Made by a program: the position numbers and the translations under genes. Source: Candidatus Parcubacteria bacterium (GTDB taxonomy: Bacteria > Patescibacteriota > Patescibacteriia > PEXW01). From it: a stretch of DNA of 45,171 nucleotides. The stretch lies in contig QZJU01000019.1 in the NCBI GenBank assembly GCA_003597955.1, forward strand, positions 1 to 45,171. The letters are read 5' to 3'. The notes under the pieces are model-generated. The model saw nothing but the letters and a program-made list of their open reading frames with translations, was not told the origin of the DNA and did not search any database. Shown piece by piece: positions 3 to 30,962 of the stretch; the stretch's first letter is position 1; each line of letters opens with the position of its first letter.

Positions 3-341
3 ATGCGGCCGCATTTCGCCCCGGCCGTGGATGTTTACGAAGAAAAGGACAACGTCGTGGCTGAAATGCCTTTGGCCGGCGTTGATCCGGAAAAAGTGGA
101 GATAACCGTGGAAGACAACATTCTTACTGTTTCCGGCAAGAATGAGCACAAAAGCGAAGTGGACGAAAAGAATTATTACCGCAAGGAAGTCCGTTATGGC
201 GCGTTCAGCCGTTCTGTGGCCCTGCCCAAAGCCGTCAAAGGCGAACAAGCCGAAGCGACTTTTGACAAAGGCATTTTGAAGATAGTTATGCCCAAGGCCG
301 AAGAGGCGAAGCCAAAAACCATCAAGGTTAAGGCTAAATAG
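3..341 (+). CDS. Hsp20/alpha-crystallin family small heat shock protein (5' truncated by window edge)
   Basis: Translation PAVDVYEEKDNVVAEMPLAGVDPEKVEITVEDNILTVSGK...YGAFSRSVALP...ATFDKGILKIVMPK matches the alpha-crystallin domain; N-terminal arm missing at window start. Confidence 0.9.
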   Translation: MRPHFAPAVDVYEEKDNVVAEMPLAGVDPEKVEITVEDNILTVSGKNEHKSEVDEKNYYRKEVRYGAFSRSVALPKAVKGEQAEATFDKGILKIVMPKAEEAKPKTIKVKAK

Positions 342-1029: not shown

Positions 1030-2940
1030 ATGTCAAAAATACTCGGAATCGATTTAGGCACCACCAATTCCTGCATGGCAATAATCGAGGGCGGCGAACC
1101 TAAGGTTTTGGAAAACAAGGAAGGCAACCGCACCACACCTTCGGTCGTGGCCATTTCCAAAACCGGCGAACGGTTGGTCGGCCAGGTGGCCAAGCGCCAA
1201 GCCGTGGTCAACCCAGAAAACACTTTGTATTCCATTAAGCGTTTAATTGGCCGGCGCTGGGACGATGAAGAAGTCCAAAGGGATTTGAAGATTCTGCCTT
1301 TCAAAATAGTTCAGGCCGGCGTGGGCGTGAAGGTCGTAATGCAGGGCAAAGAATACACGCCCCAAGAAATTTCCGCCATGGTCTTGCAGAAAATGAAAGA
1401 AGACGCGGAAACCAAGCTCGGTGAAAAAATTGAAGAAGCGGTGATTACCGTGCCAGCTTATTTTGATGATTCCCAAAGACAAGCCACCAAAGACGCGGGC
1501 GAGATTGCCGGCTTGAAAGTCCGCCGCATAATCAATGAACCGACCGCGGCAGCTTTGGCTTATGGTTTTAACAAAAAAAAGGACGAAAAAATCGCGGTTT
1601 ATGACTTGGGCGGCGGGACTTTTGACATTTCCATCCTGGAAGTCAGCAATGACACGGTGGAAGTGAAAGCCACCAATGGCGACACGCATTTGGGCGGCGA
1701 TGATTTCGACCAGCGGATAATCCATTGGATAATTGAGGAATTCAAAAAAGACCAAGGCATTGATTTAAGCCAGGACCAAATGGCTTTGCAAAGATTGAAA
1801 GAATCAGCGGAAAAAGCCAAGCACGAACTTTCCACGACCACGGAAACCGAAATCAACCAGCCTTTCATTACCACGGACGCGTCAGGCCCGAAACATTTGG
1901 TTTTAAAAATGACCCGGGCGAAATTGGAACAGCTGGTCGGCGATTTGGTGGAAAAAACCTTGGAACCAACCAAGAAGGCTTTAGCTGACGCAGGCCTAAA
2001 AACCTCTGACATTAATGAAGTGGTTATGGTCGGGGGCATGACCCGCATGCCATTGGTCCAAGGCACGGTTGAAAAATTTTTCGGCAAAAAGCCGCACTTG
2101 GGCGTGAATCCGGACGAGGTCGTGGCCATTGGCGCGGCCGTACAAGCCGGAGTTTTGCAGGGCGAAGTCCGCGATGTTTTATTGCTGGATGTTACGCCAT
2201 TGTCATTAGGTTTGGAAACCCTGGGCAGCGTGATGACGCCTTTAATTGAAAGAAACACCACGATTCCCACCAGCAAATCCCAAGTCTTTTCCACGGCCGC
2301 GGACAACCAAACTAGCGTGGAAATCCACGTGCTCCAAGGCGAACGGCCCATGGCCCATGACAACAAGTCCTTGGGCCGGTTCATACTTTCCGGCATTCCG
2401 CCAGCGCCCCGGGGCGTGCCCCAGGTTGAAGTGACTTTTGACATTGACGCCAACGGCATCCTGAATGTCAAAGCCAAAGACAAAGCCACTGGCAAGGAAC
2501 AGAGCATTACCATCACCGCTTCCACGGGTTTGTCCAAGGACGAAGTGGAAAGGATGAAGCAGGAAGCCCAAACGCACGCTGAAGAGGATAGAAAGAAAAA
2601 GGAATTGATTGACACGCGCAACCTGGCCGAGAATTTGGTCTTTACCGCGGAAAAATCCCTGAAAGACGCGGGCGACAAAGTCAGCAAAGATGTGAAAAAG
2701 GAAATTGAAGACAAGATTGAAGCCGTGAAAAAGGTGAAGGACGGGGATGACAAAGACGCCATCAAAAAAGCCTCAGATGACTTAGGCCAGACAATCCAGA
2801 AAATTGGGCAGGCGATGTATGGAAGTCAGCAAGCTGGCAAGTCGGCAAGTTCGCAAGCTGGTGGGGAGGGAGCGAAGAGTGAAGAACCGAAGAAAGACGA
2901 AGGTCCAGTGGATGCGAAGTATGAGGAGGTTAAGAAGTAA
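1030..2940 (+). CDS. dnaK: Molecular chaperone DnaK (Hsp70)
   Basis: [41 protein letters not shown]; full-length 636 aa with ATPase and substrate-binding domains. Confidence 0.98.
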
Positions 2941-3533: not shown

Positions 3534-3830
3534 ATGCGCGATCATCAAGGTTACGTATATATCATGACTAATGCGGGTAATTCCGCCCTGTATGTCGGCG
3601 CGACCAGCGAATTACCTAACCGAGTCTGGCAGCACAAGAAAAAAGCCAACCCAAAATCCTTCACGTCCAGGTATAATCTCACTAAACTTGTCTATTACGA
3701 AATAGCCGATAATATCCTTGCCGCCTACGAGCGTGAACACCAAATCAAAGCCGGCTCTCGCAAGAAAAAGGAAGCGCTTATAGAAAAGATGAATCCAACT
3801 TGGAAAGATTTAAGTGAGGAAATAGAATAA
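3534..3830 (+). CDS. GIY-YIG domain nuclease, UPF0213/YhbQ-like
   Basis: YVYIMTNAGNSALYVGATSELPNRVWQHK...TSRYNLTKLVYYE...AYEREHQIK...KKEALIEKMNPTWKDL is the characteristic small GIY-YIG pattern. Confidence 0.9.
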   Translation: MRDHQGYVYIMTNAGNSALYVGATSELPNRVWQHKKKANPKSFTSRYNLTKLVYYEIADNILAAYEREHQIKAGSRKKKEALIEKMNPTWKDLSEEIE

Positions 3831-4015: not shown

Positions 4016-4043
4016 AAAAAAGGTCGCTTATGGATAAGCGACC
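4016..4043 (-). terminator. Intrinsic terminator of the 4060-4728 gene
   Basis: Minus strand GGTCGCTTA-TCCA-TAAGCGACC followed by TTTTTT. Confidence 0.8.
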
Positions 4044-4059
4044 TTGCAGAATGAAATCA

Positions 4060-4728
4060 TTAAAGTGTTAGCAAAACCTCGGTTTTATCCAAACAGTGCT
4101 TGATGACTTTTGGAAAGTTTTCAACGCGTTTCAGGCGCTCCTCCGGCTTCAGGTTAATCCGCCCGTTGATGTTTTTTATTACATGCGGCGGCGGGTCCGC
4201 AAAGTTCAGCTCGGCTTGGATGCCGAGGAGCTGGATAAAGACCGTAAATCTGGCTGAAAAAATATTTAGTTTTGTTGTGGCGCATTGCCAGATGGTTTCG
4301 GGATTATTCAGCATCGCGGTTTTCTCGTGGTAAATGAACTGAAAAAAGTTCAAAGCGTTGAATTTGCCCGCCAAATCCCATTTTGCGTCAATAAAGTCCT
4401 TAATACGGACGGGCAGGTCTCGCAGACGGTCTGGGGTACAATAGTCGGTGTCAACAAAAATGTCGTCAACCGTGATTGGGATAGCATAACGGGGCATATA
4501 CCACCCTTTGTATTTCTGGATTAGCTTGCAGGCATCCGGCGGGTAGAAATGCTGATTTTGGTAAGTCTTTTCCGCGAGCTTGTTTAAATATTCGTCAAAA
4601 GTTGGTGCTTGACCGCGTGGTTCGCTTTCAGCCAGTGCGCCGGCTTTAAACAAAGCAATGCGAACAAACTCCGGCATATCGACGATGCCAAAACCGCCTT
4701 GGCAAAGGTCAGACAGTTTTTCCCACAT
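4060..4728 (-). CDS. Hypothetical protein
   Basis: ORF with internal ATG (MWEKLSDLC) preceded by AAGGAGATATTT SD on the minus strand; followed by minus-strand terminator 4016-4043. Confidence 0.7.
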   Translation of the reverse strand: MWEKLSDLCQGGFGIVDMPEFVRIALFKAGALAESEPRGQAPTFDEYLNKLAEKTYQNQHFYPPDACKLIQKYKGWYMPRYAIPITVDDIFVDTDYCTPDRLRDLPVRIKDFIDAKWDLAGKFNALNFFQFIYHEKTAMLNNPETIWQCATTKLNIFSARFTVFIQLLGIQAELNFADPPPHVIKNINGRINLKPEERLKRVENFPKVIKHCLDKTEVLLTL

Positions 4729-4905
4729 AAATATCTCCTTTTTAAAGTACTTAGTTTTTCTTTTTAATCCGTAAAACTTAGTTGAATTTATACTTATTGT
4801 CAAATCCGTTCCGCTTTTTTAATTATTCGCAATGACGGATTTTCTTATGTTAGAAAAATAATGGTAGAATAAGAAAGCAAAAAAAATTAACTAACCTATA
4901 TATTT

Positions 4906-5226
4906 ATGAACCTCAAAGATTTTATCAGCACAACCCTGACGGCTATTGGCCAGGGCATGGACACGGCCAGCAAAACCACAGGCCACCAGTTCAGAATTAC
5001 CACCGATCGGCGGTCGGCAAGTTCTTTCATTGAATTTGATGTGGCCGTGACCAGTGAAAGCGAAAAGCGGGGGAGCGCCGGCATCAAGGTTTGGGTTTTG
5101 GGCGCCAAAGGCGAACGCGGCAAGAAAAGCCAGAATGTCAGCCGCCTGAAGTTTAAAGTTCTTTACAAAGGCAAATTAAAGCTTAGAAAGAAAAAAACCC
5201 CGAATCAAATGATCCGGGGTCGTTAA
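4906..5226 (+). CDS. Small protein resembling the trypsin-co-occurring domain 2 (trypco2) family
   Basis: SFIEFDVAVTSESEKRGSAGIKVWVLGAKGERGKKSQNVSRLKFKV pattern (beta-rich, LGAKGE...SRLKFKV); upstream TAGAAT-like -10 at ~4864. Confidence 0.5.
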   Translation: MNLKDFISTTLTAIGQGMDTASKTTGHQFRITTDRRSASSFIEFDVAVTSESEKRGSAGIKVWVLGAKGERGKKSQNVSRLKFKVLYKGKLKLRKKKTPNQMIRGR

Positions 5227-5275
5227 GGAGCCGAGCGGGCTGTCAATCGACTTTTCTTATTTCACGAACTAGGCT
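5191..5275 (-). ncRNA. Candidate small RNA 1 of tandem array
   Basis: Minus-strand TTGACT(5304-5309)-17 nt-TAAGCT(5281-5286), then ~85 nt with no obvious ORF ending in CCCCG..CGGGG hairpin + TTTTTTT (5191-5220). Confidence 0.45.
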
Positions 5276-5314
5276 GTTTCAGCTTAAACCACCATTCAGA
5301 ATCAGTCAAGAAAG

Positions 5315-5392
5315 CCCCCAGACTCATTTTTAGAGTTAGGGGGCGGGAGGGATCGCGCTGGAATGGTCATGGAAACAAACAGCCCCATTCCA
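5315..5392 (-). ncRNA. Candidate small RNA 2 of tandem array
   Basis: Minus-strand TTGACA(5420-5425)-16 nt-TAGGCT(5398-5403); GGAATGG...CCATTCC hairpin, C-rich linker GATCCCTCCC, GCCCCC...GGGGGC hairpin then TTTCTT. Confidence 0.4.
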
Positions 5393-5437
5393 AAGATAGC
5401 CTAGCCTTGCTTGAAAAATTGTCAAATAAGTTTTTTT

Positions 5438-5463
5438 AAAAAAAGACCCTTTTAAAAAGGGTC
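5438..5463 (-). terminator. Intrinsic terminator of the 5491-5886 gene
   Basis: Minus strand GACCCTTTTTAAAAGGGTC followed by TTTTTTT. Confidence 0.8.
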
Positions 5464-5490
5464 TAAAAGAAGCCTTTCGGACGGATGAAT

Positions 5491-5886
5491 TTAACTGTTT
5501 ACTTTAGGCTGAACTTGGTCGCAGGCTTTCCAGTAGGCAATACTGCTCAAAACCCAGCCAGCGAACACCACCAGGATAAAAGTCGGTTTTATCAAACTAG
5601 GCCAGAAATCGCCAAACAGCAAGGGGAAGGAAGTTAAGATAAAAAATAATCCCTGGCAAAAACTAATCAGCTGGGCATAAGGCTTTAGTTGGATCTGGTA
5701 GAATTTGCGCCAGCGTTTCTCAACGCTCAATGAGTAAAGCAGGATTATCAAGCCAATAATTTGAGTGATTGTCGGAGGCGGAAAGAATACGCCGGTAAAT
5801 TCACCTTGGCTAACATAAATCCACCAGGCACTCAAGATTAACAAAAACTGGCCAAGTACATTCATTATTTTCCAAAACGGGTGCAA
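5491..5886 (-). CDS. Hypothetical multi-spanning membrane protein
   Basis: 131 aa hydrophobic ORF; TTG start at 5886 preceded by AAGGAGGAGAA SD. Confidence 0.7.
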   Translation of the reverse strand: MHPFWKIMNVLGQFLLILSAWWIYVSQGEFTGVFFPPPTITQIIGLIILLYSLSVEKRWRKFYQIQLKPYAQLISFCQGLFFILTSFPLLFGDFWPSLIKPTFILVVFAGWVLSSIAYWKACDQVQPKVNS

Positions 5887-5950
5887 TTCTCCTCCTTATT
5901 TGTCAAAATACTATTTTAACCAACCTTAAACCCAAAGACCCAGATTTGTC

Positions 5951-6065
5951 AAAAAAATAAGCCCCGAACCAGGTGGTTCGAGGCAAGGAATGAAAATCAC
6001 AGGAGCCTTTTGAGGCGATATTACTGCATTAATTTCAACATTAATTTCAAAAGGTTCCTAACGGA
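5951..6065 (-). ncRNA. Candidate small RNA 3 of tandem array
   Basis: Minus-strand AGGAACCTTTTGA...TCAAAAGGCTCCT long stem, then GCCTCGAACC-ACCT-GGTTCGGGGC hairpin + TTATTTTTTT; promoter less clear. Confidence 0.35.
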
Positions 6066-6088
6066 GTATGGCCTATTTTTTAAAATAT

Positions 6089-6213
6089 AAAAAAAGTCCC
6101 GAAACCTATTAGATTTCGGGACACCCTAATAGGAGGGGACTCCAACCGGGAGGCTGGCTGATGTACACAATACTTGAGGGTATTGCCTTTAAAAGAGCTA
6201 TTGAAATCGCCAG
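6089..6213 (-). ncRNA. Candidate small RNA 4 of tandem array
   Basis: Minus-strand TTGACT(6243-6248)-17 nt-TATGCT(6220-6225), ~125 nt ending in GTCCCGAAA..TTTCGGGAC hairpin + TTTTTTT (6089-6122); no obvious ORF. Confidence 0.5.
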
Positions 6214-6260
6214 GTTTTCAGCATAAAATAAGTTTTTAAAAAAGTCAATTTTTTGGCGGC

Positions 6261-6372
6261 AAATAAAAAAGTCCCGAGACCAAAATAGATCTCGGGACGA
6301 CCAAGAGACGGGGATCGCAACAGGGCGAACTCTAGTACACAGTAAGATTAAAGATCAATTCTTAATGGTTGC
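6261..6372 (-). ncRNA. Candidate small RNA 5 of tandem array
   Basis: Minus-strand TTTACC-18 nt-TATATT, ~110 nt ending in GTCCCGAGATC..GGTCTCGGGAC hairpin + TTTTTTATTT; resembles small RNA 4 from TGTGTAC to the terminator. Confidence 0.42.
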
Positions 6373-6477
6373 AAATCAAATATAGTACAAATGTTGGAAA
6401 TTGGTAAATGTTTGGGAACTAATGCAGAAAATCCAGAAAAGCCTTACAATAAACTTAATTCTTAATTATTAAAACTT

Positions 6478-6771
6478 ATGAACCCACAAACCCAGCAGAT
6501 TCAAATAAAAGTCGATGACGCCACTTTAAAAGGCGTTTACGCTAATATGATGGGCGTTGCCCACACCAAGGAAGAATTCGTCTTGGATTTCATTAATATC
6601 TACCCGGCCCAAGCCACAGGCGTGGCTACGGCGCGGGTGATTGTCTCGCCCGGACACATGAAAAGGATTTTAAGCGCGATAAAGGACAACATTGAGAAAT
6701 ACGAAAAGAATTTTGGAACCATCAAAGCCGCAGACGCGCCCGCCAGCGGAGAAGTCGGGTTTAAGGGGTAA
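6478..6771 (+). CDS. DUF3467 family protein
   Basis: QIQIKVDDATLKGVYANMMGVAHTKEEFVLDFINIYPAQATGVATARVIVSPGHMKRILSAIKDNIEKYEKNFG is typical DUF3467. Confidence 0.85.
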   Translation: MNPQTQQIQIKVDDATLKGVYANMMGVAHTKEEFVLDFINIYPAQATGVATARVIVSPGHMKRILSAIKDNIEKYEKNFGTIKAADAPASGEVGFKG

Positions 6772-8033: not shown

Positions 8034-9152
8034 ATGGCTAAAGATTATTACCAAATTTTGGGAGTTTCCAAAAACGCCACGGCTGACGAAATCAAGCGGG
8101 CTTTTCGGAAAAAAGCCCACGAACATCATCCCGACAAAACTCACGGCAACGAGGAGCGTTTTAAGGAAGTCAATGAAGCTTACCAAGTTCTATCCAACCC
8201 GGAGAAGCGCAGCCAGTACGACCAATTCGGCACGACCTTTGACCAAGCCCGTAGGCAAGGTGGCGAGCCAGGAGGAGGTTTTGGCGGTTTCGGGGATTTT
8301 AGCCAAGGCGGGTTTCAGCAGGGCAACGTGGACTTTGGCGATCTGGGGGATATTTTTGGCGACATTTTCGGCTTTGGCTCAAGCGGCCGCCAAAGGAAAC
8401 GGCGGGCTCGGAGCGGCCAGGATATCCAGGTTGATTTGCCTCTGACTTTTCGGGAAGCGGTTTTTGGCGCGGAAAAATCTTTTGAATTATTTAAAAATTC
8501 TGTTTGCGAAAACTGCGGCGGTTCCGGCGCCGACCCAGGCTCAAAAATGCAAACCTGCTCCACCTGCAAAGGCCAAGGCCAGGTGCAAAGAGTGGTAAAC
8601 TCTTTTTTTGGACAAATCGCGCAAACCACAGTTTGCCCGGCTTGCGAAGGCCAAGGGCAAATCCCCACGGCTAAGTGCCGAAATTGCCGGGGCAGCGGCC
8701 GGATTAAAAAGACCTCGGTCATAAAAGTTTCGGTGCCGGCTGGCATTGATGACGGCGAAACCCTGCGTCTGGCCGGCCAGGGCGAGGCCTCGGAAAAAGG
8801 CGGGACACCGGGGGATTTGTATTTACGAGCCCGCGTCCAGCCCGACCCAAGGTTTGTCCGAAAAGGCGCGGATATTTTCAGCGAAGTCAATATTGGCTTT
8901 CCGGCGGCTGCTTTGGGCACGAGAATCGAGGTGGAAACTTTGGATGGTCCAGTGGTAATGAAAATTCCGGCTGGCACGCAGTCAGGCAAAGTTTTTCGTT
9001 TGAGCGATAAAGGTGTGCCGCATTTGCGCAAGCGCGGTCGCGGCGATCATCTGGTGACGGTAAATGTTTTAACGCCCACCAGGTTGCACGGCAGGCAGAA
9101 GAAGTTACTGGAAGAACTTGCTGATTTACAGGGGCATGGCGTTGACGAGTAA
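8034..9152 (+). CDS. dnaJ: Chaperone protein DnaJ
   Basis: J domain with HPD, Gly/Phe region, four CxxCxGxG zinc repeats, C-terminal domain. Confidence 0.98.
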   Translation: MAKDYYQILGVSKNATADEIKRAFRKKAHEHHPDKTHGNEERFKEVNEAYQVLSNPEKRSQYDQFGTTFDQARRQGGEPGGGFGGFGDFSQGGFQQGNVDFGDLGDIFGDIFGFGSSGRQRKRRARSGQDIQVDLPLTFREAVFGAEKSFELFKNSVCENCGGSGADPGSKMQTCSTCKGQGQVQRVVNSFFGQIAQTTVCPACEGQGQIPTAKCRNCRGSGRIKKTSVIKVSVPAGIDDGETLRLAGQGEASEKGGTPGDLYLRARVQPDPRFVRKGADIFSEVNIGFPAAALGTRIEVETLDGPVVMKIPAGTQSGKVFRLSDKGVPHLRKRGRGDHLVTVNVLTPTRLHGRQKKLLEELADLQGHGVDE

Positions 9153-30752: not shown

Positions 30753-30920
30753 GCTTCCTCCTTGATTTTGAAAGTTCAAAACAGCCAAGCTTTGGTTTTT
30801 AGATTTATAAGTCTAGCCTAATAATGAAAGAATGTCAATCCAGCACCACTTTCCGGCGAAGCGTTTACAATTGGACCAAGATATTCAATCAGGTAAATAA
30901 CTTTTGTTAAAATTTAAGAC

Positions 30921-30962
30921 TTTTAGCGGAAAGAGGTGCGGGGTCAACCCCAGACGCTAAAA
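30921..30962. promoter_or_regulatory. Inverted repeat upstream of the ZIP transporter promoter
   Basis: TTTTAGCG...GGGGTCAACCCC...CGCTAAAA nested palindrome ending ~22 bp before TATAAT (30985-30990). Confidence 0.45.

Follow-up and report, generated by a model that had tools for sequence, protein, structure and literature searches.

A head-to-tail run of candidate small RNA genes between dnaK and dnaJ in a Candidatus Parcubacteria genome

The minus strand of 4.0–6.5 kb in the window (the whole 45,171-nt stretch of DNA analysed here) is predicted from sequence to carry head-to-tail monocistronic transcription units: five units without a credible open reading frame (ORF), termed U1, U2, U3, U5 and U6, together with the gene for a 131-amino-acid (aa) membrane protein and one further gene. 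The run occupies a heat-shock gene region of this uncultured, ultra-small bacterium, in the gap between dnaK and DUF3467-dnaJ. We favour the interpretation that the five units are lineage-specific small RNA (sRNA) genes, set head to tail with two protein genes, whose products would act by base-pairing without Hfq (probability about 0.58), and we predict that they probably constitute a small set of new regulatory RNAs. The features of the region are as follows.

3–341, plus strand: hsp20
1030–2940, plus strand: dnaK
4020–4803, minus strand: last unit of the run, with promoter TTGACA-17-TAAGTT (4803–4775) and terminator 4045–4020
~4728–4060, minus strand: gene in the last unit, start near 4728, strong Shine-Dalgarno sequence, no family match
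4906–5226, plus strand: Trypco2-domain gene (PF19631), convergent with the array
5188–5274, minus strand: U6, candidate sRNA of ~85 nt; terminator 5221–5196, lying antisense to the Trypco2 gene at its 3′ end
5281–5309, minus strand: U6 promoter, TTGACT-17-TAAGCT; −35 box within the U5 terminator T-tail
5311–5391, minus strand: U5, candidate sRNA of ~80 nt, C-rich; terminator 5344–5315
5398–5425, minus strand: U5 promoter, TTGACA-16-TAGGCT, found by the strict scan
5491–5886, minus strand: gene for the 131-aa putative membrane protein; AAGGAGG Shine-Dalgarno sequence, own terminator 5464–5444
5923–5952, minus strand: TTGACA-18-TAAGGT, promoter of the membrane-protein gene; shares bases with the U3 terminator tail
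5951–6062, minus strand: U3 candidate; hairpin (AGGAACCUUUUGA...UCAAAAGGCUCCU) and terminator 5984–5961, no good promoter
6087–6213, minus strand: U2, candidate sRNA of ~125 nt; terminator 6122–6096; 3′ half (6182–6087) homologous to U1 6346–6262
6220–6248, minus strand: U2 promoter, TTGACT-17-TATGCT; −10 box of the TANGCT type, one of the most frequent in the genome
6262–6372, minus strand: U1, candidate sRNA of ~110 nt, putative paralogue of U2; weak promoter TTTACC-18-TATATT (6408–6379), terminator 6298–6271
6478–6771, plus strand: DUF3467 gene (PF11950), divergent from the array
Between the DUF3467 gene and dnaJ in listed order, plus strand: gene for a 415-aa membrane protein
8034–9152, plus strand: dnaJ

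Transcription signals of the run

Five strict sigma70-type promoters (TTGAC[AT]-16..18-TANNNT) start at 6248, 5952, 5425, 5309 and 4803 on the minus strand of 4020–6478, where 1000 dinucleotide shuffles average 0.086 (maximum 2; 0/1000 reach 5), and the same strand holds five strong intrinsic terminators against 0.27 expected (100 shuffles, maximum 2), whereas the same scans of the plus strand of this interval returned 0 strict promoters and 0 strong terminators. A sixth terminator, that of U5 (5344–5315), was missed by the strict scan because of an internal loop and was seen by folding. A looser scan of 3.5–8.5 kb gave 18 terminator-like sites versus 8.2 in shuffles. Background statistics were drawn from the window and 14 further 20-kb stretches (325 kb, about one third of the genome, with genes from a simple gene caller); in this 325 kb the densest other 1.3-kb stretch has three same-strand intergenic terminators, versus five in the array. 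Packing is tight, with the terminator T-tail running into the next −35 box both from U3 to the membrane-protein gene and from U5 to U6. All five units end in an intrinsic 3′ terminator, and their predicted folds are more stable than those of shuffled sequences (z −2.6 to −3.5, with the terminators counted and contributing), and no Shine-Dalgarno-led ORF was found in any of them. Strict promoters of their own precede U2, U5 and U6; that of U1 is weak and none was found for U3, the transcription of which may be read-through from U2.

These results bear out much of a sequence-only reading of the same DNA, which had described a tandem array of up to five short transcription units at 5190–6390. The promoters and terminators that it named all lie where it placed them, including the U5 terminator that overlaps the next −35 box, and it was right that the units near 6065 and 6372 are less well served and that no unit holds a convincing ORF. 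Its membrane-protein gene with a terminator of its own inside the array is likewise present, and in addition has its own promoter (5952–5923). The units do occupy the proposed interval, but the run also extends to the next minus-strand gene and its terminator at 4045–4020.

The −10 boxes TATGCT, TAGGCT and TAAGCT are poor by the E. coli measure but standard in this organism. In the 325 kb, TTGACA-16..18-TANNNT occurs 52 times versus 2 in a reversed control; TAGGCT and TAAGCT rank with the most common −10 boxes there, and taking the commonest base at every position gives TAAGCT; genome-wide, TTGAC-N-TANGCT occurs 29 times versus 3 in the control. Most of the 25 TTGAC-N-TANGCT sites outside the array stand just upstream of ORFs with a clear Shine-Dalgarno sequence, and several precede small genes that stand alone and end in a terminator of their own. 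The promoters of U2, U5 and U6 are therefore credible, since their −10 forms match the organism's own standard, and the case for the array is strengthened because TANGCT is among its commonest −10 types. The consensus TTGACA-17-TANGCT is usable as a guide for searches in this group.

Three further observations concern these signals. Strong Shine-Dalgarno 5-mers stand at 19 of 241 predicted gene starts versus 8 in control windows, although start calls are rough, and most genes directly behind TTGAC-N-TANGCT promoters do carry a Shine-Dalgarno sequence. Outside the array, the genome has an isolated unit that resembles an sRNA gene (L086:5665-5820; G000:C6:25664 on) and consists of a terminator, TTGACA-17-TACGCT, ~110 nt and a terminator, with no Shine-Dalgarno-led ORF. 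A palindromic intergenic element of ~120 bp with the ends CCCGCACCACTTTCC...GGAAAGTGGTGCGGGG(TTGACA), the right end of which adjoins the −35 box of the downstream promoter, occurs in the window at ~30830–30950 (minus strand), in L082, L084, L086, L087, L091, L092 and L093, and in L008 at ~3608–3713; 32 arm matches in the 325 kb versus 0 in a reversed control correspond to perhaps ~16 elements, which may be MITE-like mobile promoters or conserved operators.

Relatedness of the units and searches for relatives

We regard U1 and U2 as diverged duplicates because their shared 3′ half outscores all shuffles even with the terminator left out (the alignment of the 50 nt before the terminator was matched by 0/2000 shuffles) and because a covariance model of U2, run against the whole genome, found U1 at 32.5 bits (E = 5.5e-5) and nothing else beyond U2 itself. 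UGUGUAC, GUUG, UCCCC and the terminator are common to both, and the terminator stem carries one compensatory pair change, A-U to G-C. Homology of U5 and U6 was rejected (151/2000 shuffles were as good), and no other pair passed the homology test: U3, U5 and U6 are siblings neither of U1/U2 nor of each other. As relatedness is confined to two of the five units, ‘array’ here denotes adjacency and not a repeated family. The sequence-only reading of repeated units thus stands for head-to-tail adjacency with individual signals and falls for copies of one repeat; its candidate sRNA array is partly upheld, as a set of separate, predicted short non-coding units, on the grounds of promoters, terminators, agreement with the organism's own promoter consensus, fold z-scores and absence of Shine-Dalgarno-led ORFs.

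Rfam searches of the units returned no family at gathering cut-offs or at permissive thresholds, in keeping with the earlier statement that no named family fits. In 57 and 115 genomes the array DNA gave chance matches only, to terminators and to AT-rich sequence, and covariance models of U2, U3 and U1+U2 found no relatives beyond U1/U2; across both kinds of search, 38–115 related genomes were covered. Matches of the R2 model in G011, G012 and G040 (E 0.001–0.009) and of the R3 model in G010 (E 0.06) were set aside as at or near chance for the number of genomes searched. Among the protein genes, the 131-aa membrane protein matched no Pfam, NCBIfam or PADLOC family, and no protein family was found for the gene at ~4728–4060.

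The locus in related genomes and alternative readings

The host genome belongs to the same genus as a Candidatus Kerfeldbacteria metagenome-assembled genome, and the closest named relative of the 415-aa membrane protein is from Candidatus Kerfeldbacteria CG08_land_8_20_14_0_20_43_14. A scan of GTDB genome contigs found a single further locus, on a Kerfeldbacteria contig of G001, the one other same-genus genome compared, in which the neighbouring proteins are 65–90% identical to those of the window. Divergent from DUF3467, this contig carries TTGACA-17-TATAAT, a ~165-nt unit without a clear ORF, a terminator and then TTGACT-17-TAGCAT, directly after which it ends, inside the array. When aligned to the window, its terminator corresponds to that of U1 and its second promoter to that of U2 (score 22.5 versus 17.1 ± 2.0), and the layout of U1 appears to be partly kept in this genome. 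Also in G001, one palindromic element immediately precedes the array's first unit, and an ORF for a Y1_Tnp (IS200-like) transposase, absent from the window, lies between DUF3467 and the 415-aa gene (L008:2722-3276, minus strand).

Distant families of the class (G019 and G015) have the same order, dnaK–DUF3467–dnaJ, and G027 and G044 fit it within the reach of the stretches. Since the dnaK–DUF3467 gap differs so much in length among genomes (<400 nt in G019 and G044, 2.6 kb in G015, ~4 kb in G027 and 3.5 kb in the window), we interpret it as a variable accessory site. A search for Trypco2 in 381 genomes of the class found four genomes besides this one, of which only G027 has DUF3467 beside it within the stretches read. 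The Trypco2–DUF3467 interval of G027, a more distant genome than G001 (Trypco2 62% and DUF3467 72% identical to the proteins here), contains three short units in the same orientation as the array, which encode 79, 23 and 53 aa in ORFs with Shine-Dalgarno sequences; promoters were found for two of them (TTGACA-17-TAAGCT and TTGACA-16-TAGACT). At the same site G015 has one small protein of 90 aa. Because the short units of G027 encode small proteins, the site is better seen as a putative hot spot for short transcription units with changing content. Also in G027, the dnaK–Trypco2 interval contains a gene whose product has weak PADLOC matches to SIR2 (L074:6068-7159, minus strand), which suggests that accessory genes collect there, and on the other side of DUF3467 there is a unit of TTGACT-16-TATACT, ~165 nt and a terminator, without a clear ORF (L047:1245-1449).

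These comparisons bear on what the five units are. If the interval is a hot spot for small-protein units, U1–U6 could be remnants in which the coding parts have decayed while promoters and terminators persist, so that RNAs are made but have no function. The terminator-bearing small-protein units of G027 and G015, the variation of the gap between <400 nt and 2.6–4 kb, and the lack of conservation of the unit sequences in the relatives searched are all consistent with decay, but the promoters and terminators of most units remain near the organism's standard, U1 and U2 have retained a non-coding 3′ half since their duplication and the units fold better than shuffles (terminators included), so we consider this account unlikely, though deserving of attention. 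That the units encode very short or leaderless peptides seems improbable to us: one of the G027 ORFs, with a strong Shine-Dalgarno sequence, is only 23 aa long, a few nucleotides downstream of the predicted U5 transcription start an ATG opens a frame of 27 codons, and U3 contains a 6-codon ORF; however, the U5 frame passes through the terminator, U1 and U2 have no ATG-started ORF of at least 5 codons, and a Shine-Dalgarno-led start, which most genes behind this promoter type possess, is absent from all five units.

We attach a similarly low probability to a purely local role, in which the units would be cis-acting attenuators, antisense elements or insulating terminators, with U3 regulating the membrane-protein gene, U6 the Trypco2 mRNA at its 3′ end, and none acting in trans. 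The U3 terminator lies ~75 nt upstream of the membrane-protein gene and that of U6 overlaps the Trypco2 3′ end, as this would predict, but where the U3 terminator ends, the membrane-protein gene has a promoter to itself, and what comes next after U1, U2, U5 and U6 is in each case another unit or a convergently oriented gene, leaving no gene to attenuate. Against the sRNA interpretation that we prefer, we count U3 without a promoter, the short units of G027 with Shine-Dalgarno ORFs, the absence of sequence or covariance-model relatives in the genomes searched, the absence of Hfq and the null result for pairing described below.

Possible mode of action and comparison with known sRNA arrays

If the units are sRNA genes, each candidate would be transcribed by the main sigma factor as a discrete RNA of 80–125 nt, with U3 perhaps produced by read-through. 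The RNAs would then act in trans, a C-rich single-stranded stretch pairing with mRNAs; base-pairing is how most small RNAs of such kind act, and we infer it here for that reason. Any such pairing would be Hfq-free, because Hfq was not found in this genome or in 18 relatives (0/19; control genomes positive). Anti-Shine-Dalgarno 5-mers are weakly enriched in the unit bodies (P = 0.016, for a motif chosen after looking), but the bodies paired no better than shuffled bodies with 241 translation-start regions (z between −0.7 and +2.0, none favourable, negative values denoting better pairing than shuffles), so a general anti-Shine-Dalgarno mode is not supported. A local antisense effect of U6 is possible because U6 and Trypco2 overlap at their 3′ ends.

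The array probably grew through duplication of U1/U2 and the gain of new units at an insertion-tolerant site. A broader and more speculative version, which we rate as doubtful, is that the dnaK–dnaJ interval in these Candidate Phyla Radiation bacteria would be a breeding ground for promoter-terminator cassettes of ~150 nt, acquired, copied and given new contents in the form of either an sRNA or a small protein, in which case each lineage would have its own set of regulators beside the chaperone genes. Our searches of the open-access literature turned up no paper dealing with regulatory sRNAs in Candidate Phyla Radiation bacteria; a compact array with clean signals offers defined probes for whether such reduced genomes use RNA regulation.

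The nearest layout is that of NsiR1 in Nostoc sp. PCC 7120, an sRNA of ~60 nt in 12 tandem copies upstream of hetF, with individual promoters and with repeat 1 antisense to hetF (PMC9045159). Both are short sRNA genes in tandem with their own promoters (here predicted), but seven NsiR1 copies are identical and the others diverged versions, whereas only U1 and U2 are related here, and NsiR1 is under one developmental promoter motif, whereas the present units have house-type promoters and interspersed protein genes; the Rfam NsiR1 model scored below its cut-off on the array. LhrC1-5 of Listeria monocytogenes are multicopy sRNAs of 111–114 nt that carry CU-rich sites and act on mRNA with no requirement for Hfq (PMC4132741); they are five near-identical copies under LisRK, and no sequence relation between them and the array was found. 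In arrays of the NsiR1/LhrC type all units are homologous copies, a property found here for U1–U2 only. As two related adjacent sRNA candidates, U1 and U2 resemble sibling sRNAs (reviewed in PMC4211561), from which the array differs in that U3, U5 and U6 are no siblings of any unit. Because homologous copies are limited to U1/U2 and no Rfam family matches, we class the array as candidate orphan bacterial sRNA genes, unusual in their density and in their host group.
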